Assembly: GCF_029502005.1 (NCBI RefSeq)
Contig: NZ_JAMQOT010000005.1
Location: 1-64,000 of the forward strand
Direction: 5' to 3'
DNA: 64,000 bases
Source of the DNA: Natrinema salsiterrestre
GTDB lineage: Archaea; Halobacteriota; Halobacteria; Halobacteriales; Natrialbaceae
A program made the position numbers and the translations under genes. The notes below the pieces were generated by a model. That model did not search any database and was not told the DNA's origin. It saw only the letters and a program-made list of their open reading frames with translations. Of this stretch, positions 14,949 to 34,078 are shown in pieces; the first letter of the stretch is position 1, and every line of letters begins with the position of its first letter.

Positions 14949-16784
14949 CTACTGCGCGAGGTCCGTCGCGAAGAGACACCAGGTGCCGTCTGGCAACAGC
15001 ATGTAGAGCCCATCGCCCGATCCGTCGTCGGTATCGGTGTACTGGACGAGGTCGCCGGGCTGCCAGTCGTCGGCCGCCGGCCGCTCGCCGGTACCCGACG
15101 CCACACCGATCCCGCTTCGGGTCACGCAGTCGCGATCGATCCGCCAATTCTGGTTCATAACGTTCCGCGTGACGACGCTCTCGAACGCGATCGGCGTCCC
15201 CGTCTCGCCGGCGCCGCTCGCGAGAGAAATACCCTCTGTTAGGTCCTCGAGGACGAGTTCGTCGAAGCGGACGTTCGAGAGATCCACGCTACCATCGATC
15301 CAGACGCCGTCCCATTCGCCGGTGCCGACGACGCGGATGTCTCGCCAAGTCACGTCGCGCCACGTCCCACTCTGGACTTCCCACTTCGCTCCGGGTTCTG
15401 TCAGCCACGGGTTCTCGTGTGTGATATCCGAGAACGTCGCGCCCACGAGTTCTCCGCCCTGATCGTCCTGGTAGAACAGTTGTCCTCCGCTCTGGATCTG
15501 ACAGTTCGACACGGCGACGTTCTTCACGTACGCAGGGTGTCCATCAACTGCGTTGTGGTTCCAGAAGTGACCGTACACGTTCGTGGCGGCGAAGTTCGAG
15601 ATGGAAACGTTATTCACGTGACCCCACGTCCGGACGATATCATATGTGTGATCACAGGTGCAGTTGGAGACGGTGATATTCTCGAGTTGTCCGTAGTCGG
15701 ACGTCCCACCGGAGTCGTTGTTGTTCATGAGCTTGATCTCTCCGCCGTTGTACCCGTGATAGTCGGTGACCGAGACGTTCCGAATCACCGTATCATTCTC
15801 AGTATACAGGCGGACGAACGGTCCGTGTCCCGTCTCGTTCGTCTCGTACTGATACATAACCCCGCCGCGGTATGCCAAAGTACTCAGATCGCCCCCGTCG
15901 CCCGCGAGCAGGTCGCTCTCGGACCAGTCGAGAGCGCTGTAGGCCGTCACGAAGTCGTCGTTGACCGTTCCAGCGAGGTTCGACATGATTCCGCGCTCGC
16001 CCGGACCGGCAAACGAGATGCCGTCCTGATTGTCGTGGGAATCGTCCTGTGCGATGAAGATGTCGTGGACGAACGCGTCCGTGAAATCCTCGACTATGCC
16101 GCCCCAACCGGCTGTGGGACCGAGCGTAAATCCGCCGACGCGTAGCCGTTCGACGTTGTGAAAGACGAATCCGTAGTGTTCGCTCACCTCGGGTTCGTTC
16201 CTGCCGGCGTCGTTCTCGTAGGGACGATTCTGTCCGGCGGCGTTGCCGTCTAGCCTCGCGGCCCCCCGCCCGACAACGGTGATGTCTTCGTCGCGATCTT
16301 TCGTGTTCTGGAACGCGAGTTCGTTCCGCAACAAGTTCGTTCGGGCGGCGTCGTCGAGGAACAGGTAACTGCCGTCGAGAACGAGCGTCGTCTCGGACGG
16401 GATGGTGACGGCATCGGTAACCAGCCACCCGTCGGCGCGCTCGCTGTGATCGTAGCCCGCCAAGTCGTCCGGACCTTCGGCGGGGACGACGACCGTTCCG
16501 CGGACTCCGTCGAGATCGTCAAGCGCCGCCTGAATCTGCTCACCGCCGTTGGCACCGTCGAACCGCGTCGCGTATACGACCTGGCTCCCGAGGGTCGGTC
16601 GTTCGCCGTCGACAACGAGCGAACCGAGTTCGAGACGGTCGCCGTTTTCGTCGAAGCCCCCGAGGAGCCGATCAAGTTTTTCGAAGTCAGTCCGGTGTTC
16701 CCACGATTCGCCGTTATCGAACAACTGGAACCCGTGGTTACTGGTGAAGGAGGGCATTGGGCACCCTTTCGAATCGAACGTCAT
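14949..16784 (-). CDS. Right-handed beta-helix protein, GH28/pectate-lyase-like
   Basis: A 611-residue protein with repeated short strands typical of a parallel beta-helix from residue 80 to 540 (repeats such as LENITVSNCTCDHTYDIVRT and VKNVAVSNCQIQSGGQLFY). NQDGIS (about 252-257) and NDDFV (about 275-279), followed later by GGEIKLMNN, resemble the N-x-D, D-D and R-I-K motifs of family 28 polysaccharide hydrolases. No Sec or Tat signal is visible, which is odd for a polysaccharide-degrading enzyme; tail-spike proteins also lack one. I chose the start at 16784 because TTTAAG (16812-16817) sits about 30 bases upstream. Confidence 0.65.
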   Translation of the reverse strand: MTFDSKGCPMPSFTSNHGFQLFDNGESWEHRTDFEKLDRLLGGFDENGDRLELGSLVVDGERPTLGSQVVYATRFDGANGGEQIQAALDDLDGVRGTVVVPAEGPDDLAGYDHSERADGWLVTDAVTIPSETTLVLDGSYLFLDDAARTNLLRNELAFQNTKDRDEDITVVGRGAARLDGNAAGQNRPYENDAGRNEPEVSEHYGFVFHNVERLRVGGFTLGPTAGWGGIVEDFTDAFVHDIFIAQDDSHDNQDGISFAGPGERGIMSNLAGTVNDDFVTAYSALDWSESDLLAGDGGDLSTLAYRGGVMYQYETNETGHGPFVRLYTENDTVIRNVSVTDYHGYNGGEIKLMNNNDSGGTSDYGQLENITVSNCTCDHTYDIVRTWGHVNNVSISNFAATNVYGHFWNHNAVDGHPAYVKNVAVSNCQIQSGGQLFYQDDQGGELVGATFSDITHENPWLTEPGAKWEVQSGTWRDVTWRDIRVVGTGEWDGVWIDGSVDLSNVRFDELVLEDLTEGISLASGAGETGTPIAFESVVTRNVMNQNWRIDRDCVTRSGIGVASGTGERPAADDWQPGDLVQYTDTDDGSGDGLYMLLPDGTWCLFATDLAQ

Positions 16785-16961
16785 GGGTACGTGGCTGGAC
16801 ACCTTCCACCTTTAAGCCGAATCATCGTCGTCCGAACTGTCGTTTCGTCCGATATTGTCCGAACCGACGAAAATGACGCACCGTCGGTAGTACGCTCGTC
16901 CTACAGTCGGATGGAACCTGTTCGAGCAGCAAGCACGAGTTGCATCCAGTGTCCCGGTTCG

Positions 16962-19900
16962 TCAGTCCATTCTCCTCGACGATCGAGTGATTCGGTCGGC
17001 TGCGCCGGTTTCGTCCTCCGGATTCCGCTCGAGGACGACCGTTATCCGCTCCAGTTCAACGGTGGCGGTGGGATCCAGCAGACGGCCGCGGAATTCGACG
17101 TCGCCGCGGGTTCGCTTGAGGTCGAACTCCTGGGTCACCGCCCGGAGTCCGTCCGTCTCGTTGACCGTCTGGTTCGCGAGAACCTCGGCTTCGGTCTGCC
17201 CCCGAACCATTCCGGCGGTCGTGTCGAGGGCGACGGCACCATTTTTGCTCTCGGTTCCGCCCGAGACGTCGAGGTAGTACGTCACCTCGTAGGTTCCCGG
17301 GTGGAACAGATCTCGCGGACCGTACCACGCGAAGTCGCGAGCGCCGGTCGCGACGAGCCGACCGTCCTTGAGCTCGGCCGACGAAGCAAGTGGCCGGAAG
17401 TCCGCCGGTTCGTACCGATATCGTTCGGTTATCTCGTAGGTCCCGTCGTATTCGAGTTCGTCGTGATCGATTTCGTAGATCGTGACCGCGTCGTTTTCGT
17501 AGGCGATGGAGACTCCCTCGAGTTCCGTGAAGGGCCGAACCTCGCCGTATCGGTCCTGCTCGAGCGGGCCCGCGTGGACGTACTGGACGTCGTACTTCTC
17601 GAGGATGTCGACGCGTTCGGCGGGCGTTCCCTGGTAGAGCGCGTCGACGTCGTGGGTACGCTCGTAGTAGGCGGTTTCGTCACGGTATACGCGCTGGTGT
17701 TCCCAGCCGACGACGGTGGGGATGCCGGTCAGGCTCGAGGGAGCGCTGTCCCAGCGCCACCGGCCGCCGGGCGCCGACGCCATCGTCGGCTGTCCCTCGA
17801 CGTGGTCATCCAGCCAACTAATTGCGTCCATCTCCGCCGGGTGCAACGCCTTCGCGTAGAGGTGGCCGTCCAGCGTCGGATCCTCGTCGTTGACGGTGAC
17901 GCCCGATCGGCCGTCCAGCGTCTCGAGATGCGTGACCGACACCGACTTAAGCCGTATCGTCGCGTTCTCCTCCTCGAGTTCGCCGGCGACGACGACGTTC
18001 TCGTGCGTGCGATTGATTCGCACTGTCGTCGACACCCGTTCATAGCCGTCGGTTTCACCGATCGGCATTGTTTCGAATCGGGTCTGCTCGCGTTCGTGTG
18101 GAATCCGGCCCTCGACGGCGACCGTCCCGACCCGTTCGTCTTCGTCCTCGCTCTCGGCAGTCGCGTTGACGACGGCAACAATCTCGTAGACGCCGGGCTG
18201 GAGCCACGTGTACGGGCCAGACCACACCCGTCTCTCGGCACCCGAGGCGACGATTTCGCCGTCGATAATGCCACTGCTGAGCGTCGTATCGAAGTCAGTC
18301 CCGCTGTACGTTCTGGTCTCGTGGACGCTACTCACCTCTAATCCGGGCGGTTCGTGGCTGTAATAGCCGGTGTTATCGGGCGGGGACGTCGATCCGTGGA
18401 CGAACTGAGCGAAAGCGATTCCTCCGTATAACGACGTCATGACCAGTACTACTGCGACTAAAACGGCGCCTCCGTTCACCGGCCGATCTCGCGACGGGAG
18501 TCGATCGCGAGTGAGGAGACGCGCTGATAGCACGCCAGCGGCGATTCCCCAGAGAACCCAGGTCTGGAAGTACGCCCTGAAAAGGGTGTTCGTTCGGCCG
18601 ACCACGATCGGGTCCGGGTCGTCGAGGTAGACGAACTCGATCGTCAGCAGCATCACCGAAACGGCAACGAGCAGCACCATCGCGAAGTTATCGTCCTCGC
18701 GAGCGGTCCACCACGCGAGAACGAGGAGCGGGCCGAATATGACGCCGGCCGCAAGATCGATCGTGAGCCAGAGGAGGAGAGCGAGCACGGCGGTGCCAGC
18801 AAGTTCGAGTCTGCGCAGACTCGTCTCCCGATTGAGCACCGGGATCGTCACGGTCCGAGTCCGCTGCGTTCCCCCGTCAGTCGATTGATCACCGCCGACG
18901 GTGGAGTCGACTCGGTCGACCACGACGAAGTAGACGATCGTTACACCCGCGAACGCACCGTACAGGAGGACGAGTTGGGGACCGGTGGTACGTTGGTCAG
19001 AACCGATTAGCGCGACGGTTCCGCTTTCGACGCTGATAGTCGCGAACAGGGGCGCCGAACTGGCGACCGTCAACACACCGATCGCGATCACAGCGACAGT
19101 GGCACGGAGGACCGACGACAGTTCGGCTACCAGCCGGTCTTCCGTTTCCGAACCATCCGCTCGACGGAGACGAGCAGCGACGTTGGCTCCGGCGGAGTCG
19201 AACGCCACGACGAGCCAACACAATCCAAGTGCCGTCGGGAGCGTCCAGACGTCGATAACGGTTGTCGTTCCGATAGCGATCGGAACCGCGGCGAAGAGGA
19301 GTGCTCGTCGGCGACGTCGATCCTCCAGTGGCGTCCGGTAATAGGCGTACAAGAGCGCGGCCGTGAAGACGAGAAACGGCGCGCTCGAGAGGTGTGCGTG
19401 GAGTTCACCGTGTAGCGCCTCGAGTAACGGAACGGGCGTCAGTCCTTCCTCGATCAGGAACTTCGGATCGTCGTACCGGAATTCGGATAAGCCGTCCCAC
19501 AACAGCTCTGCCCTAGCCCACGTCAGGTGGGGAGCGAATATCACGAGTAGCGGCTCCGCAATCCTGTCCGGGACCCGGGACGTGACGACGATGAGCGGGA
19601 CGAAGAGGTTGCCCGCGATACCGACGAAGAACGCGCCGAGGAGACCGGCGAGGCGGCGCGATCGATCCCGAGCTACCGCGATTGAGCCGGCGAGTTCGTA
19701 CGATCCAGTTACCAGCAGCGCGTAGACCGTCGCGACGGCGAGATTGTGCCCGTAGCGCGGATCGACGCCCGACAGTTCGACCAAGATCGCCGATAGGAGA
19801 GGGCCGCCGTAGTGATATTGAATCGGCTCCCCGGCGAACCACGGGTCCTCCGGTGGGAGCGTCTCACCTCTGAGTATCGACTGTAGGATCGAATGGTTCA

Positions 19901-26080: not shown

Positions 26081-26254
26081 ATGACCGGAAGCGGCACTGT
26101 CGAACGGGTTTTATTGCGCCTGAAGCCGAAGCGGAGATGGGAGAATCGCTATGAGGCATCGGGTTAGAAAGCACAACTCTCCCATCATCTTGGAGACTCT
26201 TGTCTACTCCAGTTGAGAGCGAAGTGAGAATTGCATGACAGCAAGGCCGTCGTA
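26081..26254. other. Possible insertion sequence remnant beside tRNA-Glu
   Basis: A 28-codon frame from 26081 reads ERVLLRLKPKRRWENRYEAS before its stop and could be a transposase tail. Further right, 26200-26236 reads TTGTCTACTCC-AGTTGAGAGC-GAAGTGAG. This resembles the insertion sequence termini elsewhere in the window (TTGTCTAGTT, then TTGAGAAGTGAG) but is clearly diverged. Both pieces are too short for a firm call. tRNA genes are common integration sites. Confidence 0.25.
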
Positions 26255-26330
26255 TGCTCCGTCTGGGATTTGAACCCAGGTCATCGGCTCGAAAGGCCGA
26301 AATGATTGGCCGGACTACACCAACGGAGCA
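26255..26330 (-). tRNA. tRNA-Glu (anticodon UUC)
   Basis: The minus strand folds as a tRNA of 76 bases. The acceptor arms TGCTCCG and CGGAGCA pair perfectly. The anticodon stem is TCGGC/GCCGA with loop CTTTCGA, giving anticodon TTC (Glu). The T-arm is CTGGG-TTCAAAT-CCCAG. No intron and no encoded CCA are seen. A box-A-like stretch TTTTCATTAG (minus strand) lies upstream near 26360-26370. Confidence 0.95.
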
Positions 26331-26466: not shown

Positions 26467-27864
26467 CTACCCGCGCCGAAGCGACGTCCCCTCGAACGGC
26501 ATCGACAACTCACCCTCGAGTCCGAGCAGATCCGCGATCGTCGGGGCCACGTCGATCGCGTCGACCGGCTCGTCCCCCTCGAGCGCGGGTGCTGCCGGAC
26601 CACCGAGCCCGAAACACCCGAACGCGGACTCGTCGACGCGACCGTGGGAGCCGCTCACGTTCGAGGCGTCCAGCGAGACGAGTCCCTCGTCGCCGAAGAA
26701 CAGCTCGCAGGGGTCGAAGCCGGGCTTGGCGTGAATGTCCATCTCGGTCGCGTACGGCGGCGCGTTCGCGCGGTCGTCCCACCAGTAGTACTGAAACCAT
26801 GCGTTCGGCGCTGCGACGAGGACGAACTCCCCGGCGTTCGGGTGGTCGATCTCGCGCTCGGCTTTGCCCGCCTCCTCGAGCACGGTATCGATCCCCTCGA
26901 GCCCCGCGAGCCCCGCGAGCGCGTCGCGAGCGGCCTCGATCGCCCCCTCGTCGACGTAGACGTGTGCGATCTGGTGGTCGACCATGGCGAATGCGTCCGA
27001 GGCGGCGAGATCGACGTCGCCGTCGTCGGCCGTCTCGAGCAGGCCGGCGTCGCGGAGCGCGCGGTTGGGGAACACCGGCCGATCGACCTCGTGAAAGCCG
27101 TACTCGCTGACGAGGGTGAGCAGGGTCTCGTCCCAGCGGTCGGTCGCGGAGAGGAAGTCGAGGAACTCCTCGAGGAGCCCGTCGACGACGTCGAGCTGTT
27201 CGGTAAAGGCGTCGCTCTCGGGGCCGTCGCTCTGGCCGACGTAGTCCAGGTGGGGAACGTAGATCCAGAGGAGATCGGGATCGAACCGATCGATCGCCTC
27301 GCGGGCGGCCGACAAGATCCAGCGGCTTCCCTCCTCGTTCGCCCCGGGGCCCCAGTAGTTGTGCAGCGGGAAGTGACCCAGCTCCGCCCGGAGGTCGTCG
27401 TAGAAGCCGTCCGGGTTCGTCCAGCAGTTCATCTCGAGAATGTCGTTGTTCTCGTCCTCGATCGGCGAGGGGGTGACCGCGACGTCGGCGCTCGTCCCGA
27501 TCAGGTGCTGGAAGTTCAGGACGCCGGTGGTCAGCCCCGCTTCGTCGCTCGCGGTCTCCCAGAGCCGGTCTCGTCCGTCGCGGTCGCGCTCCCAGAACTC
27601 GGCGGCGTCGCGCTCGCGGTCGTACTCGCCGCTCGAGATGTCGCCGTGCTCGCCGGGGCCGCGCCCGGTCCCGAGCGTCGTCTGGGCGGGAACCGTCACG
27701 GCGGGGAACGGCGGCCGGAGGTCGGTCATCGATTCGGTCGAAACGAACGACTCGAGCGCCGGCGTTCGGTCGGCGTCGACGTGTTCGGGCCGGAGGCCGA
27801 CGACGTCGAGAACGATCACGCGGCCTGCAGTGTCAGTCGCGGCGGGAATCGTCGGTTCGGTCAT
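26467..27864 (-). CDS. Alkaline-phosphatase-superfamily phosphodiesterase, EboF-like
   Basis: A 465-residue protein of the type I phosphodiesterase/nucleotide pyrophosphatase group. Metal and nucleophile signatures run in order: VIVLDVVGLRPEHV (first Asp), PAVTVPAQTTLGTGRGPGEH (nucleophile Thr region, residues 55-75), YVPHLDYVGQ (Asp and His pair, near 225), SEYGFHEVD (Asp/His region, near 265) and GSHGRV (His, near 410). It lies 30 bases downstream of the inositol-phosphate synthase in one transcript. In bacterial ebo clusters EboF belongs to this superfamily; the equivalence is inferred from family and context. It may release phosphate from a cyclitol-phosphate or related lipid. Confidence 0.75.
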   Translation of the reverse strand: MTEPTIPAATDTAGRVIVLDVVGLRPEHVDADRTPALESFVSTESMTDLRPPFPAVTVPAQTTLGTGRGPGEHGDISSGEYDRERDAAEFWERDRDGRDRLWETASDEAGLTTGVLNFQHLIGTSADVAVTPSPIEDENNDILEMNCWTNPDGFYDDLRAELGHFPLHNYWGPGANEEGSRWILSAAREAIDRFDPDLLWIYVPHLDYVGQSDGPESDAFTEQLDVVDGLLEEFLDFLSATDRWDETLLTLVSEYGFHEVDRPVFPNRALRDAGLLETADDGDVDLAASDAFAMVDHQIAHVYVDEGAIEAARDALAGLAGLEGIDTVLEEAGKAEREIDHPNAGEFVLVAAPNAWFQYYWWDDRANAPPYATEMDIHAKPGFDPCELFFGDEGLVSLDASNVSGSHGRVDESAFGCFGLGGPAAPALEGDEPVDAIDVAPTIADLLGLEGELSMPFEGTSLRRG

Positions 27865-27894
27865 GGTTTCACTGTGGGCAGGTGGTGGTCGGGG

Positions 27895-29109
27895 TCAGCG
27901 GTACCGCTCGGCGTAGTCGTACAGGCGATTCAGCTGCAGGGAGAAGTCGTGCTCCTCGACGCCGAGGGGCGCTTTGAAGAACGACGCGAGCTGGGGCTGG
28001 AGCCCGCCGTGTCCGTGCTCGTCGGCGTGGGCGATCAGGCGCACCAGATCGAGGACGAGCGGGGCGGCCAGCGCGGAGTCGGATCCCTCCCACGTGAACT
28101 GCATTTTCATCTCCGTCTCGAGGAAGCCCTCGAAGTGGATGTAATCCCAAGCCGTTTTCCAGTCAGCCAGCGACGGCGTGTAGTCGATCCGGACCCGGTT
28201 GTGATCGATGTCGGGCAGGATCGACTCGAGCACGTCGCCCTTGGTCGCGAGCTTCCCCGCGGCGTTGGCCTCGTCCTCGAGGACGAGCCCGTCCGCGTTG
28301 CCGAGGATGTTGTGCCCCTCCCAGCTCATGACGTGGAGGTTTCGCCCGGCGAACATGGGCGCCAGTGCGGACTTGACGAGCGTCTCGCCGGTCTTGGCGT
28401 CGCGTCCCGTGTGGGGGACCTCGTTTTCGGCCGCGAACTCGCGGATCCCGCCGAGGGCGTTGCCCGTACTCGGCGTGAAGTTGACGAACGGATGCCCGCC
28501 GGCGATCGCGGCGTAGGCGTAGCACACGCTCGCCGGCAGGTCGCGGTCGTCCTCGTCGATCGCCCGTTCGAGGGCGTCTCGACTGTCGTATCGTTCCGGA
28601 TCGGGCAGTTCCGGTTCCGTCGAGGCGACGTTGACGACGACGAGCCGCTCGAGGTCGTGGCGGTCGCGGAACGACTCGTAATCGTCACCGATCTGCTCGA
28701 CGACCTCCCGAATCGCCAGGTCTTCGTCTAACCGTTCGCTCTCTTCCGAGAGGGCGGCCCCGCAGTTGATCGCCGTCCCGACCTCGATCCGCTCGTCGAT
28801 TTCGGCGAGGTCGTCTCGGACCGCCTCGAGCGCGTCCGCGTCCGGGACGCCGTTTCGGTCGCGCTGGCGTTCGGCCTGCGCGACGATCGATTCGGGTTCG
28901 ATGTCGTGGCCGCCGAAGACGAGACCCTCGACCGGCGGGAGATCGAGGCTCGAGACCTGCTCGCGTTCCGTGACCATTCCGGTCGTCCCGGTACGCCCTC
29001 GGGCGATCGCGCGGGCACCGACGATCGCCATCGTCGCGACGTTCCCGCGGGCACCGACGAGCCAGACCCCCGTTCGCTCGTCGACCGGTCTATCCGTCCC
29101 CTGACTCAT
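27895..29109 (-). CDS. ino1: Myo-inositol-1-phosphate synthase
   Basis: A 404-residue protein. It has an N-terminal NAD-binding motif (GVWLVGARGNVATMAIVGAR, residues 15-34) and family signatures HTGRDAKTGETLVKSALAPM, WEGHNILGNADG and DIDHNRVRIDYTPS, which build the active site that converts glucose 6-phosphate to inositol 3-phosphate. The reaction is the entry to inositol lipids and solutes such as archaetidylinositol. It leads a leftward transcript with the phosphodiesterase and is divergent from the TatD/isomerase/UbiA genes, suggesting that its product feeds them. Confidence 0.85.
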   Translation of the reverse strand: MSQGTDRPVDERTGVWLVGARGNVATMAIVGARAIARGRTGTTGMVTEREQVSSLDLPPVEGLVFGGHDIEPESIVAQAERQRDRNGVPDADALEAVRDDLAEIDERIEVGTAINCGAALSEESERLDEDLAIREVVEQIGDDYESFRDRHDLERLVVVNVASTEPELPDPERYDSRDALERAIDEDDRDLPASVCYAYAAIAGGHPFVNFTPSTGNALGGIREFAAENEVPHTGRDAKTGETLVKSALAPMFAGRNLHVMSWEGHNILGNADGLVLEDEANAAGKLATKGDVLESILPDIDHNRVRIDYTPSLADWKTAWDYIHFEGFLETEMKMQFTWEGSDSALAAPLVLDLVRLIAHADEHGHGGLQPQLASFFKAPLGVEEHDFSLQLNRLYDYAERYR

Positions 29110-29400
29110 CGCGAATCCTCCCCGCTCGACGGGTAACGGCTATCGAATTGCGACCGCCCGCTCCCCCCGGGATCGATCGCGCGCCACCCGTCGACTCCGA
29201 TCGCTCGTTCGGTCGGGATCATTCCCACGAACGTGGGGACCGTACCGGTTTCGTTATGGCTTCCGTAGCGGAAGTAATTCGGATTTGATCGGCCGTAACA
29301 CCGTATTCCAGCGGAGGAGGAGTCGATCCGTCGGGATCAACGCCGGGTTTGCCGAGCGAACGATCACAGCACCAAACCGTCCGTTCGTCGGACGGCGGGT
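29110..29400. promoter_or_regulatory. Divergent control region of the ebo-like locus with two palindromes
   Basis: This 291-bp gap holds the promoters of both arms. Two perfect inverted repeats stand out: CCCACG-AA-CGTGGG at 29224-29237 and CTTCCG-TAG-CGGAAG at 29260-29274. They could be operators for a shared regulator, or the stems of a leader. No small gene is convincing here; a start inside the region would place extra non-conserved residues before the TatD-type protein. Confidence 0.45.
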
Positions 29401-30201
29401 ATGCGGATTATCGATCCTCACATGCACATGGTATCGCGCTCGGCCGAGGACTACCGACGGGCGCGGCGAGCGGGTGTCGAGTGCTGCATCGAGCCGGCGT
29501 TCTGGAGCGGCCAGGACAAACGCAACGCGGGCTCGTTCTTCGATTACTTCGAGCAGATCATCGACCACGAGACCGATCGCGCGGAACGAGCCGCTAATAT
29601 GGATCACTACGTGACGATCGGCCTCGAGCCGAAGGAGGCCAACTACCGCGACATGGCCGAAGACGTCCTCGACCGCATTCCGGAGTACCTCGAGCGCGAC
29701 CCCGTCGTCGGCGTCGGCGAGATCGGTTTCGATCAGGTGACCGACGACGAGGAGTGGGCGTTCCGCCGCCAGCTCGAGATCGCCGACGACCGCGAGCTGC
29801 CGGTCATTATCCACACCCCACACACCGACAAGCCGTCGGGCACCGAGCGCATCGTCGAGATCGTCGAAGAGATGGGCGTCACGCAGGAGCGGATCATCAT
29901 CGATCACAACACCGAGAACACGATCGATATCTCGACTCGGACGGACTGCTGGATCGGCTTCACGCTCTATCCCGGCAAGATCGAGACCGGGTCGGCGATC
30001 GACCTGCTCGAGGAGTACGGGACCGACAACATGATCTTCAACAGCGCGGCCGACTGGGACCCCTCGGACCCGCTCGCGGTGCCGAAGGCCCGCGACGAGA
30101 TGCTCGATCGGGGCTGGGACCGCGAGGACGTACGGAAGGTGGTCTTCGAGAACCCCTACGAGTTCTTCGACCAGTCGCCGAACTTCGACTACGAGGCCTG
30201 A
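29401..30201 (+). CDS. TatD-family metal-dependent hydrolase, EboB-like
   Basis: A 266-residue amidohydrolase of the TatD type. Metal ligands appear in the family's order: H7 and H9 in RIIDPHMHM, a glutamate in VGVGEIGFDQV (near residue 104), a histidine in LPVIIHTPHT (near 139), a histidine in IIIDHNTEN (near 166) and an aspartate in NSAADWDPS (near 220). Insertions compared with bacterial TatD nucleases suggest a different substrate, as for EboB in ebo clusters. Its stop lies four bases before the next start, so translation is coupled. The exact reaction is unknown. Confidence 0.75.
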   Translation: MRIIDPHMHMVSRSAEDYRRARRAGVECCIEPAFWSGQDKRNAGSFFDYFEQIIDHETDRAERAANMDHYVTIGLEPKEANYRDMAEDVLDRIPEYLERDPVVGVGEIGFDQVTDDEEWAFRRQLEIADDRELPVIIHTPHTDKPSGTERIVEIVEEMGVTQERIIIDHNTENTIDISTRTDCWIGFTLYPGKIETGSAIDLLEEYGTDNMIFNSAADWDPSDPLAVPKARDEMLDRGWDREDVRKVVFENPYEFFDQSPNFDYEA

Positions 30202-30205
30202 ACGC

Positions 30206-31036
30206 ATGCAGTTCGGCTTCTCCACCAACGCCTTCCGGGAGTACCAGCTCGAGGACGCGATCGAGGCCGTCGCCGACGCGGGGTACGACGGCGTCGAGAT
30301 TCTGCTCGACGAACCCCACCTGTATCCCCCCGACTGTTCCCGCGAGGAAATCGAGCGCGTCGCGGACGTCCTCGAGCGCCACGACATCGCCGTCAGCAAC
30401 GGCAACGCGTTCATGCTGACCGCGATCGAGGACTTCCATCACCCCTCGTACATCGAGGTCGACGAAGGGTATCGGCAGAAGCGGATCGACTACACCCTCG
30501 CCGCGCTCGAGACCGCGGCCGACCTCGGTCTCCCGTACATCTCGATCGAACCCGGCGGACCGATTCCCGAGGGGAAGTCCCGCGAGTGGGCGATGGACAC
30601 CTTCGTCGATAGCCTCGAGCGGGTCGTCCCGAGGGCCGAGGAGCTGGGCGTCGACCTCCTCGTCGAACCCGAACCCGACCTGCTGATCGAGACGGCCGAC
30701 GAGCTCCTCGCGCTGCTCGAGCGCGTCGACTCCGAGCGCGTCCGGTGTAATTTCGACGCCGGCCACTTCTACTGCGTCGGCGAGGACCCCGCCGAACTCG
30801 TCGACCCGCTCTGGGAGCACACGAGCCACTACCACCTCGAGGACATCCCGGCCGACCGGAGTCACGAGCACACGCGACTCGGCGACGGGGCCATGGAGAT
30901 CGACGCCTTCCTCGGCGAACTCGAGACTCGCGGCTACGACGGCTTCGTCACCGTCGAACTCTACCCCTACGAGGAGACGCCGGTCGAGACCGCGCGGGCG
31001 GCGATGGACTACCTCGAGGAACGCGGGTGGGCGTAG
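30206..31036 (+). CDS. Xylose-isomerase-like TIM barrel, EboE-like, copy 1
   Basis: A 276-residue sugar phosphate isomerase/epimerase (AP endonuclease 2 family). Strand-end motifs of the barrel are visible: MQFGFSTNAFREYQLEDAIE, GYDGVEILLDEPHLY, ISIEPGGPIPEG, LLVEPEPDLLIE, CNFDAGHFY and YHLEDIPADRSHEHTRLGDG. The acidic and histidine residues Glu, Asp, His and Glu at these ends are the usual divalent metal site. It sits between the TatD-type and UbiA genes (spacers 4 and 1 bases), the arrangement expected of an operon. A paralog follows at 32414. Confidence 0.8.
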   Translation: MQFGFSTNAFREYQLEDAIEAVADAGYDGVEILLDEPHLYPPDCSREEIERVADVLERHDIAVSNGNAFMLTAIEDFHHPSYIEVDEGYRQKRIDYTLAALETAADLGLPYISIEPGGPIPEGKSREWAMDTFVDSLERVVPRAEELGVDLLVEPEPDLLIETADELLALLERVDSERVRCNFDAGHFYCVGEDPAELVDPLWEHTSHYHLEDIPADRSHEHTRLGDGAMEIDAFLGELETRGYDGFVTVELYPYEETPVETARAAMDYLEERGWA

Positions 31037-31037
31037 G

Positions 31038-32009
31038 GTGGCCGGCGGCGCGTCGTCGGACCGCGACGAGCGGGCGAGCGCGGTCGACGACGGCGACCGG
31101 AGCGACCTGCGGGCGATCCTCGGCGGGTACGCCGAACTGGTCCGGCTTCCGAATCTCTTCACCGCGCCGCCGGACGTGATTCTCGGCGCCGCGCTGGCGG
31201 CTCTCGCCGGTGGGACGCCGCTACCGACGAGAGTCGGCGGACTCGCGCTCGGATCGGTGCTCCTCTACGCCGGCGGGACGACGCTCAACGACGCCTTCGA
31301 CGCCCCCGTCGACGCTCGAGAGCGACCCGAACGGCCGATCCCCTCGGGTCGGGTGGCTCGACGAACCGCGTTCGGACTGGGATTCGCACTCCTCCTCGTC
31401 GCCGTCGCGGTCGCGTTCGCCGTCGCGGGCGGTCCGGCCGGCGTCGCGGCCGGGCTGGTCGCCGTCGCAATCGTCGCCTACGACGGCTTCCTCAAGGGAT
31501 CTGCCGCCGGTTTCCTCGCGATGGGAATCACCCGCGGGCTAAACGTCGTTCTCGGGACGACCGCGGTCGGAGCCGTGGTCCTCGAGTCGCCGCGTCGACT
31601 CCTGGCCGTGCCCGCGGTCGTCACCGCCTACATCGCTGCCGTCACGTTCATGGCCGCGCGAGAGACCGAGGGCGGAAATCGGCGCGCCGTCGCGGTCGCG
31701 TCCGCGGGTGCGGTCGCGGCGGTGCTCGCCCTCGGCTGGTTCCTCGCGGGCGTCGAGCCGGCAGCGCTTGAGGCCGCCGTCGCCCTCGCCTTCGCGGGCG
31801 CGTTCTGCTGGTGGGTCGGCCGACCGCTGCGGGCCGCGTTCGCCGATCCGGTGCCGAGTACCGTGGGGCCCGCGGTCGGCGCGTGCGTCCTCGGGCTCGT
31901 GTTGCTCGACGCCGCCTTCGCCGCCGCCGTCGGCGTTCGCTGGGGGCTCGCGGCCGGCCTCGCTCTCGTTCCGGCGGTGGGACTGTCGCGCGCGTTCGAC
32001 GTGACGTGA
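31038..32009 (+). CDS. UbiA-family prenyltransferase, EboC-like
   Basis: A 323-residue integral membrane protein with a GTG start immediately after the previous stop. About eight to nine membrane helices follow a 25-residue acidic head. The first aspartate-rich motif is TLNDAFDAPVDARERPERPI (Asn84, Asp85, Asp88, Asp92), the prenyl-diphosphate site of UbiA enzymes; IPSGRV follows. The second Asp motif is weaker (YDGFLKGSAAGF, near residue 155). UbiA proteins attach prenyl groups to acceptors in the membrane; EboC is the UbiA member of the ebo cluster. Acceptor here might be a cyclitol, but that is an inference. Confidence 0.8.
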   Translation: MAGGASSDRDERASAVDDGDRSDLRAILGGYAELVRLPNLFTAPPDVILGAALAALAGGTPLPTRVGGLALGSVLLYAGGTTLNDAFDAPVDARERPERPIPSGRVARRTAFGLGFALLLVAVAVAFAVAGGPAGVAAGLVAVAIVAYDGFLKGSAAGFLAMGITRGLNVVLGTTAVGAVVLESPRRLLAVPAVVTAYIAAVTFMAARETEGGNRRAVAVASAGAVAAVLALGWFLAGVEPAALEAAVALAFAGAFCWWVGRPLRAAFADPVPSTVGPAVGACVLGLVLLDAAFAAAVGVRWGLAAGLALVPAVGLSRAFDVT

Positions 32010-32413
32010 CTCACCACGTGCGCTGTGATCTCGTGCGGTGTGATGTGAGTAACCGCGTTGCGGTGGCGCGCGCTGAACCGCGGTGAGTCGATGACGAACC
32101 GCGGTTCGACACCGTGTGAGGGACGAGGGAGGGAGCACCGCGACCGACCGAGTCGGTTGGGGAGGGTGTGGAAGTTCCCCGTTGCCACGTAAGTGAGGAG
32201 TCGCGTTCGATTCAGCGCTCCCTGAATAAGATAGCTCTACTCGATCTGGCACCGGGGAATCGTCACGCCCCTCCCCACCCGACTCACTCGCGCAGTATCC
32301 TCGGCCGACAGCGCGCGCCACAGCAAGAGGCCGTCACAGTACGCAGGTCTGACTCCCGGTCGAGAGGGAGGGCCAACGAATTAGTGGCATTTCGGTGTAC
32401 GAGGCACAGATCG
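32010..32413. other. Gap with a 15-bp tandem repeat
   Basis: About 400 bases between the UbiA gene and the second isomerase. At 32017-32046 two copies of a 15-mer lie side by side, CGTGCGCTGTGATCT and CGTGCGGTGTGATGT. The rest has no gene and little structure. A long in-frame extension of the next gene into this region is not family-like. The promoter of the next gene should lie near 32380-32390, but no strong TATA box is visible. Confidence 0.4.
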
Positions 32414-33262
32414 ATGGTCGAACTCGCATTCTCGACAAACGCGTACACGCGCCACTCCCTCCCCGAAGCCGTTCGGCGGATCGCCGACCACGGCTATACG
32501 GGCGTCGAACTCCTCGGTGACGATCCCCACGCCTACTTCCCCGAGTTCGGCGACGACGACCGTGCCGCCCTGCTCGAGACACTCGAGGAGACGGACCTCG
32601 CCGTCTCGAATGTCAACGCGAACACGGCGATGGGGTACTACGACGACGCGCCGCCGTCGTCGTTCTTCGAACCGAGCGTGATCCGCGCCGACGACGAGGC
32701 CCGCGAGTGGCGCGTCGAGTACACCAAACGGGCGATCGATCTCGCCGAGACGGTCGGCTCGCCGGCGGTCTGTCTGGCGAGCGGCCGCCCGCTCCCGGGG
32801 ACGATGCCCGAGGCGGCCCGCGAGTACCTCCACCAATCGCTCCGCGAGATCCTCGACTACGCCGAGCCGCGCGGGGTCGACGTCGGCATCGAGTTCGAGC
32901 CCGAGTTGCTGATCGAGAACACCGAGGAGGTGCTCGCACTCATCGACGAGCTCGGCCGCGACTCGCTGGGCGTCAACCTCGACGTCGGCCACGCGGCCGT
33001 CTACGGCGAAGACGTCGCGGAGAGCATCCGCGCCAGCGCCGGCTCCATCACCGGCGTCCACCTCGAGGACATCGTCGGCGGCCGCCGGGGGAAACACTAC
33101 CATCGGATCCCCGGCGAGGGTGATCTCGACTTTCGGGCGATCTTCGACGCGCTCGAGGACGTCGGCTACGACGGCTTCGCGACGCTCGAGCTCTACACCT
33201 ACCCCGACGAACCGGATCGCGCGGCACGAGAGGCCTACGCGGAACTCGAGGCGTACGTGTAG
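32414..33262 (+). CDS. Xylose-isomerase-like TIM barrel, EboE-like, copy 2
   Basis: A 282-residue paralog of the protein at 30206: MVELAFSTNAYTRHSLPEAV and GYTGVELLGDDPHAYFPEF match the first barrel strands. EPELLIENTEEVLALI, NLDVGHAAVYG and VHLEDIVGGRRGKHYHRIPG follow at the corresponding sites, again giving Glu, Asp, His and Glu as metal ligands. I started at the ATG at 32414, where homology with the paralog begins. It lies outside the tight operon, 404 bases downstream, so it may be a separately controlled or later duplicate acting on a related substrate. Confidence 0.75.
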   Translation: MVELAFSTNAYTRHSLPEAVRRIADHGYTGVELLGDDPHAYFPEFGDDDRAALLETLEETDLAVSNVNANTAMGYYDDAPPSSFFEPSVIRADDEAREWRVEYTKRAIDLAETVGSPAVCLASGRPLPGTMPEAAREYLHQSLREILDYAEPRGVDVGIEFEPELLIENTEEVLALIDELGRDSLGVNLDVGHAAVYGEDVAESIRASAGSITGVHLEDIVGGRRGKHYHRIPGEGDLDFRAIFDALEDVGYDGFATLELYTYPDEPDRAAREAYAELEAYV

Positions 33263-33340: not shown

Positions 33341-34078
33341 ATGAAATACGTCCGCTTTCGCGATCCGGCCGGTGCGGTCCGCCGCGGCGAGTACGAGAAC
33401 GGGACCGTCCACTTCGCGAACGAGAGCTACGACCTCGCGAGCGACGAGATCGACGTGTTACCGCCGTCGGAGCCGTCGAAGGTCGTCTGCATCGGGCGCA
33501 ACTACGCCGACCACGCCGACGAGATGGGATCGGACCTCCCCGACCGCCCGATGCTCTTCCTGAAGCCGCCGAACGCGCTCGCGGCTCACGGCGATGCGGT
33601 GACCGTTCCCGCGGGCAAGGAGCGGATCGACCACGAGGCCGAACTCGGCGTCGTCATCGGCGAACAGTGTCGCCACGTCTCCGAAGCCGACGCCATGGAC
33701 GTCGTCGAGGGCTTTACCTGCGTGAACGACGTCTCGAACCGCGACGATCAGCGCCGGGAACAGAACTGGATCCGCGGCAAAGCGTTCGACGGGGCGGCGC
33801 CAATGGGACCCGTCCTCGCGACCCCCGACGAAGTCCCCGGCGACGCGTTCGTCCGATCGCGCGTCAACGGCGAGCTCAAACAGGACGGCTCCCGCGAGCA
33901 ACTCATCTTCTCGATTCCCGAACTGATCGCCGAGATTACCACCTATCTCACGCTCGAGCCCGGCGACGTGATCGCGACCGGCACGCCGGAGGGCGTCGGC
34001 CCGCTCGAGGACGGCGACGACGTCGAGATCGAGGTCGAGGGCGTGGGCTCGCTCGAGCACTCGGTTCGGATCCCCTGA
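33341..34078 (+). CDS. Fumarylacetoacetate hydrolase family protein
   Basis: A 245-residue FAH-superfamily enzyme. The signature VVCIGRNYADHADEM opens the catalytic domain, with HEAELGVVIG (metal-binding Glu), GFTCVNDVSNRD and VIATGTPEGVGP further on. Family members hydrolyse or decarboxylate acylpyruvates and similar beta-diketo acids in aromatic breakdown; the substrate here is open. A TATA-like CTTTTTA at about 33310-33316 lies 25-31 bases before the ATG, indicating a leaderless single transcript. Confidence 0.85.
   Translation: MKYVRFRDPAGAVRRGEYENGTVHFANESYDLASDEIDVLPPSEPSKVVCIGRNYADHADEMGSDLPDRPMLFLKPPNALAAHGDAVTVPAGKERIDHEAELGVVIGEQCRHVSEADAMDVVEGFTCVNDVSNRDDQRREQNWIRGKAFDGAAPMGPVLATPDEVPGDAFVRSRVNGELKQDGSREQLIFSIPELIAEITTYLTLEPGDVIATGTPEGVGPLEDGDDVEIEVEGVGSLEHSVRIP

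Follow-up and report, generated by a model that had tools for sequence, protein, structure and literature searches.

What would an inositol-phosphate synthase do beside a UbiA prenyltransferase in a haloarchaeon? The question is raised by six genes at positions 26467-33262 of a 64,000 nt stretch of Natrinema salsiterrestre DNA (NZ_JAMQOT010000005.1, positions 1 to 64,000; hereafter the window), which lies on contig C23 of a haloarchaeal genome of 4.79 Mb (G000 in our set). A previous reading, made by a model from the letters and their ORFs (the sequence-only reading), had described the set as an archaeal counterpart of the bacterial ebo clusters, with two genes running leftward and four rightward. 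Every ORF was found in that order and on that strand, with spacers of exactly 4 bases between the genes for the TatD-type hydrolase and the first TIM barrel, TIM1 (30202-30205), and 1 base between those for TIM1 and UbiA (31037), and all six proteins scored above the cut-offs in a Pfam profile search (Table 1). Canonical eboABCDEF clusters are found in Nostoc, Bacteroidetes and eustigmatophyte plastids (PMC6282210, PMC5133447), and a need for ebo in moving a metabolite across the membrane has been shown only in Nostoc (PMC6282210). No compound was reported for any ebo cluster in the literature that we searched.

Judged by its sequence, the locus is a haloarchaeal variant of ebo built on myo-inositol-1-phosphate synthase (MIPS), and no canonical ebo cluster. 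We regard its identity as an ebo relative as nearly certain; for this identity and a cyclitol product taken jointly, we estimate a probability of about 0.5. The proposed relationship to ebo was upheld by motifs and trees, which recognized EboB, EboC and EboF types among the six proteins. That the UbiA is not of the menaquinone or digeranylgeranylglyceryl phosphate (DGGGP) synthase type was confirmed by profile: the best match was EboC (NF035940) with 201.7 bits, against 67.6 bits for the best non-Ebo UbiA profile. The window UbiA carries the motifs NDxxDxxxDxxERPERPIPSG and RGLN, common to EboC proteins (R-G-L-N/D), and both it and EboC lack the second Asp motif (DxxxD) of the DGGGP synthases compared. 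In the tree, haloarchaeal UbiA grouped with EboC and SCO3242 proteins against DGGGP synthase with support of 100, the haloarchaeal clade itself being weak (69), and the best bacterial matches were Bacteroidetes EboC proteins, mostly at 33-40% identity. The protein is thus EboC-like by motif and by tree, though not by NCBI score. Identification as a DGGGP synthase or quinone enzyme was ruled out by profile (55/296 bits for DGGGP synthase) and by tree; the DGGGP synthase-like gene of the same genome stands elsewhere (G000:C20).

The two hydrolases point the same way. The window TatD carries the EboB motifs DPHxHM, GEIG, HTPH and S(A/S)(A/C)DW, of which the first, third and fourth are common to it and bacterial EboB; its identity to the EboB of Streptomyces is 45% across 267 aa, and the haloarchaeal TatD clade stands beside bacterial EboB in the tree, which places it with EboB. 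The phosphodiesterase, which has a fold like NPP and phosphonoacetate hydrolase, shares PAVT, YxPHLDY, SEYG and GSHG with actinobacterial and Bacteroidetes EboF, is 38% identical to the EboF of the Streptomyces cluster over 431 aa, and belongs with EboF both by this signature and by its position in the tree. The unusual SEYG stands at the position of the SDHG metal-ligand motif of Xanthomonas NPP, and because it replaces SDHG in archaeal and bacterial EboF, the metal site is altered alike in both domains.

Enzymes of the MIPS family convert glucose 6-phosphate to inositol phosphate. The window MIPS, the sole MIPS in its genome, aligns with that of Archaeoglobus fulgidus (PDB 1u1i) over 370 residues; because all four catalytic lysines are conserved, it is predicted to be active and probably carries out this reaction. 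The association of MIPS with this type of UbiA extends beyond the window. Among 41 relatives, the UbiA, MIPS and TatD co-occurred in 15/15 genomes versus 0/26 others, and among 99 genomes of the order MIPS was present in 14/15 with this UbiA versus 2/84 without it (Fisher p ~5e-14, a value that ignores phylogeny). MIPS and UbiA were both kept even where they lie at a distance from each other or on separate contigs (for example in genomes G058, G097, G105 and G112), and tblastn found MIPS in loci L077 and L081 as well. The MIPS of haloarchaeal clusters formed one clade (support 100), sister to that of actinobacterial and Rokubacterial clusters (88) in a quick tree with long branches. Separately, plasmids of Roseomonas (L179:7977-15329) and Hymenobacter (L192:5782-12408) were seen to combine MIPS with genes for Gfo/Idh, YcaO and an isomerase of the TIM1 type, a set that is another uncharacterized inositol-based biosynthetic cluster.

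MIPS occupies the place of the other sugar-phosphate cyclase, as the sequence-only reading had supposed: MIPS is in the cluster and EboD was not found. No dehydroquinate synthase (DHQS)-like gene was present among the conserved genes, and a search of the rest of the genome for a substitute resembling EboD gave only a 21.5-bit match with NF004852, a related DHQS-like model. The predicted absence of EboA also held, since an EboA HMM that recovered the control in 9/9 bacterial loci had no match in any of the 42 haloarchaeal ones; nor was EboA found in the window's own genome, in a search that had no positive control. The idea that a TIM barrel is the EboE counterpart had to be given up. The TIM barrels scored 20-25 bits on the EboE profile versus 424-601 for true EboE (in the window's genome, the best were TIM2 at 22.3 and TIM1 at 20.2, under a cut-off of 250 bits), and EboE split from TIM1 and TIM2 in the tree with support of 100; profile scores and tree together rule out either barrel as EboE. 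TIM1 instead grouped with isomerases of MIPS-type bacterial clusters, next to SCO3242 (tree support 88-91), and its AF2 model (pLDDT 94.9) had Art22, ketose 3-epimerases and IolI as closest PDB matches. TIM2 formed a haloarchaeal clade of its own, separate from EboE, and is a second barrel of TIM1's isomerase kind; both barrels are epimerase/IolI-like.

Strong conservation of gene order, which the sequence-only reading had put forward for checking, was observed. We compared 42 haloarchaeal cluster loci (L066 and L080 are one stretch counted twice): the six-gene order was identical in 29/42 and the TatD-TIM1-UbiA core was present in 42/42, so the arrangement is far beyond chance. Cluster loci are plasmid-borne in Halocatena, Natronococcus, Halobaculum and Haladaptatus, and genomic in Halopiger, Natrialba, Halorubrum, Halorussus, Haladaptatus, Halococcus, Haloferax, Haloarcula and Halobellus; within the window's genus, 12/25 genomes hold the cluster. 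A wider archaeal spread was excluded, the cluster being confined to the window's order among 158 sampled genomes of the phylum. The interval between UbiA and TIM2 varies in content among loci, with genes for a PAS kinase, GSDH, MgtE or TrmB in some, so that no missing core gene could be recognized there. An extra TIM barrel adjoins the cluster in several haloarchaea (L039:13910-14908, L038, L076, L079), and its Natronococcus copy starts with a Tat-like signal sequence.

The swap of cyclase is not the archaeal trait that it had been taken for, being found also in Streptomyces, Nonomuraea, Embleya, a Rokubacterium and Gemmatirosa. Streptomyces plasmids carry MIPS, an SCO3242-type UbiA, isomerase, EboA, EboB, EboE and EboF consecutively, and the other four hold comparable sets, EboE included; EboA was seen in every such bacterial set except that of Gemmatirosa. 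In Streptomyces coelicolor, SCO3242 and SCO3243 are listed as a transferase and a MIPS of the CDA region (PMC3610822), and we found no published description of a MIPS-type ebo cluster, though our coverage of the literature was partial. The haloarchaeal locus resembles this SCO3242 type in having MIPS beside an EboC-like UbiA and a relative of the cluster isomerase (TIM1), and departs from it in UbiA score and in having neither EboA nor EboE; none of the 99 genomes of the order has a UbiA above the SCO3242 cut-off. The closest-looking gene order was seen in the planctomycete Aeoliella (L109:8148-12336), where TIM1, UbiA, isomerase and EboF genes are consecutive and a TatD resembling EboB lies close by. 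Neither MIPS nor EboD was found in the retrieved Aeoliella stretch, and of its two upstream ORFs one had no Pfam hit and the other is a THUMP-like methyltransferase; with no cyclase there, this locus does not indicate the source of a cyclitol.

These observations lead us to propose a pathway in which MIPS would cyclize glucose 6-phosphate, TIM1 and TIM2 would isomerize the cyclitol or its keto form, and EboC, a membrane enzyme, would attach a prenyl chain, in archaea probably geranylgeranyl, to this cyclitol or to a compound derived from it; EboF and EboB would trim phosphate or another group. An isomerase acting on the MIPS product is supported by the unrelated YcaO clusters, outside ebo, in which MIPS is again followed by this type of isomerase. 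A prenylated cyclitol as the product of the cluster is, in our judgement, an even prospect. It could then act in the membrane as a carrier or partner by which a small molecule reaches the cell surface, the function proposed for ebo in Nostoc; here, such a role in membrane traffic is a tentative suggestion. The notion of a lipid carrier derives from the study of Nostoc (PMC6282210) and that of an isoprenoid cyclitol from Yurchenko and colleagues (PMC5133447).

Several observations weigh against this proposal. Under NCBI cut-offs the UbiA falls short of both EboC (201.7 bits against 250) and SCO3242 (NF045897; 168.7 against 260). MIPS was not found in two cluster-bearing genomes, G098 and that of Haloarcula pellucida. 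EboA and EboE, each required in Nostoc, are absent from the haloarchaeal cluster. The only EboC enzymes tested, Ubi-297 and its homologues, farnesylate quinoline acids in vitro, with no cyclitol among the acceptors described (PMC9235831). Several canonical metal-ligand positions are missing from all EboF compared, archaeal and bacterial, which makes a plain phosphatase role uncertain; EboF may be no ordinary two-metal phosphatase. Finally, no transporter is conserved in the cluster.

Aromatic acceptors are usual for the UbiA superfamily, which counts for a different chemistry in which EboC would prenylate an aromatic, quinoline-like acceptor, the cyclitol from MIPS or EboD being attached separately or forming another part of the molecule. 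We consider this unlikely. The Ubi-297 (EboC) enzymes of Maribacter, Zobellia and Algoriphagus do farnesylate 8-hydroxyquinoline-2-carboxylic acid, but the tested acceptors described were aromatic only (PMC9235831). Moreover, the conserved gene set contains no aromatic-pathway gene, and since EboC is without the second Asp motif of the compared DGGGP synthases, it may have an unusual site for acceptor or donor.

MIPS might instead supply inositol for ordinary archaetidylinositol-type head groups and stand beside the UbiA cluster incidentally, as would follow from the published reading of the Haloferax volcanii MIPS HVO_B0213 (PMC8305020) and would suit a Halomarina plasmid on which MIPS adjoins glycosyltransferase genes. 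This is rendered quite improbable by the distribution of the gene, which is missing from 82/84 genomes of the order without the UbiA cluster yet present in 14/15 with it, unlinked cases included, and by the recurrence of MIPS-cluster adjacency in four phyla. Highly improbable, in our view, is a sugar or inositol catabolic cluster of epimerases and hydrolases with UbiA as a hitch-hiker: the barrels do resemble IolI, IolO and ketose epimerases, and some plasmid copies lie amid ThuA, DUF1080, Gfo/Idh and sugar-transport genes, but the position of UbiA is invariant (42/42), EboF and EboB bear ebo-specific motifs, MIPS is anabolic, and no inositol dehydrogenase occurs in the conserved set.

Beyond the six genes, a secreted beta-propeller protein of the GSDH family (PF07995), often with a plastocyanin-like copper domain, recurs by the haloarchaeal cluster. 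It lies within 16 kb of UbiA in 8/15 cluster-bearing relatives, with 0.35 expected; its position differs among the other haloarchaeal loci and one copy has a Tat signal. In Dyadobacter ebo clusters GSDH directly follows EboF (L095:13775-14731 and others). The genome of the window has GSDH too, but 218 kb from the cluster. In the genomes that have GSDH by the cluster, the carried molecule may then meet this redox protein. A ScyD/ScyE family protein and a multicopper oxidase flank the MIPS-type ebo cluster of Streptomyces sp. NBC_00028, the first directly before it and the second after it, neighbours that recall the scytonemin locus.

Table 1. Features of the window and of related loci discussed in the text
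Feature	Position	Strand	Remarks
tRNA-Glu(TTC)	26254..26330	-	left edge of cluster
EboF-type phosphodiesterase (alkaline-phosphatase superfamily)	26467..27864	-	465 aa; PF01663 Phosphodiest, 159 bits
MIPS (myo-inositol-1-phosphate synthase)	27895..29109	-	PF07994/PF01658, 158/111 bits; catalytic lysines
Divergent promoter region	29110..29400	.	conserved block TTTCGTTATGGCTTCCGTAGCGGAAGTAA at 29249-29277; putative function
EboB-type TatD-family metal hydrolase	29401..30201	+	266 aa; PF01026, 70 bits; EboB motifs
TIM1, sugar/cyclitol isomerase-epimerase	30206..31036	+	276 aa; PF01261 AP_endonuc_2, 152 bits
EboC-like UbiA prenyltransferase	31038..32009	+	323 aa; PF01040, 62 bits
TIM2, second isomerase-like TIM barrel	32414..33262	+	282 aa; PF01261 AP_endonuc_2, 153 bits
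FAA-hydrolase family protein	33341..34078	+	PF01557, 236 bits
GSDH near UbiA	genomes G031, G040, G003, G015, G018, G019, G022, G024		
GSDH near cluster	L073:9958-12432, L074:9974-12502, L077:10087-12159		
ScyD/ScyE family protein and multicopper oxidase around Streptomyces sp. NBC_00028 cluster	L177:6626-7825 and 16754-17113		

Homology and sequence place the start of TIM2 at an ATG rather than at the GTG (32168) of the mechanical ORF, because its relatives are ~281 aa long and homology begins at MVELAFSTN; TIM2 thus starts 404 bp beyond UbiA, without tight coupling. In the divergent promoter, alignment of the spacers of 17 loci revealed a 29-base block common to relatives, a possible regulator site. 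The left flank consists of the tRNA-Glu and two DUF2298 genes, and the right flank of the FAA-family gene and a metal hydrolase, with topoisomerase VI 4 kb further. The tRNA-Glu neighbours the cluster in all 11 cluster-bearing congeners, L057, Halopiger and Natrialba, and is absent from the other loci scanned. The FAA-hydrolase gene adjoins the cluster in the congeners and in a second genus of the family (L057), elsewhere only in a looser case (L062), and probably lies outside the cluster proper.

A MIPS variant brings a cyclase of known chemistry to the ebo question and so provides a concrete, testable substrate for EboC, and the finding that an enzyme which makes inositol stands in for the usual cyclase suggests that the ebo product contains a sugar-derived ring. 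A variant that manages without EboA and EboE reveals which parts of ebo are dispensable. Haloarchaeal MIPS has been read as a lipid head-group enzyme; this view is revised by the near confinement of MIPS to cluster-bearing genomes among those sampled. A new genetic system for the ebo question becomes available in haloarchaea, among them Haloferax. In a general scheme, all bacterial and archaeal ebo clusters would make prenylated cyclitols, the ring being formed by EboD or by MIPS, two cyclases that are unrelated; the archaeal cluster would represent the minimal set (EboB, EboC, EboF, cyclase and epimerases), and at the cell surface the product would work together with secreted redox proteins of the GSDH/copper type; we hold this to be doubtful as a whole.

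Compared with known systems, the window UbiA shares the UbiA fold and the first Asp-rich motif with DGGGP synthase and other archaeal UbiA proteins; DGGGP synthase is set apart by a branch with support of 100, and EboC differs from it by RGLN and the lost second DxxxD. The A. fulgidus MIPS, which we take to be a free-standing enzyme, has the same four lysines over the aligned residues, whereas the window MIPS is tied to the UbiA cluster. With canonical ebo, the haloarchaeal cluster has EboB, EboC and EboF in common by motif and tree; canonical ebo has EboA, EboD and EboE, whereas the haloarchaeal cluster has MIPS instead of EboD and is without the other two. The actinobacterial clusters of SCO3242-SCO3243 type (Streptomyces, Nonomuraea, Embleya) also contain EboA as well as a true EboE, and all their genes lie in one direction, whereas the haloarchaeal cluster has divergent arms and a second isomerase-like barrel in a set that lacks those two proteins. 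Common to both are an EboC-like UbiA and four further proteins, with identities of 46% for MIPS, 31-33% for the isomerase, 45% for EboB and 38% for EboF.

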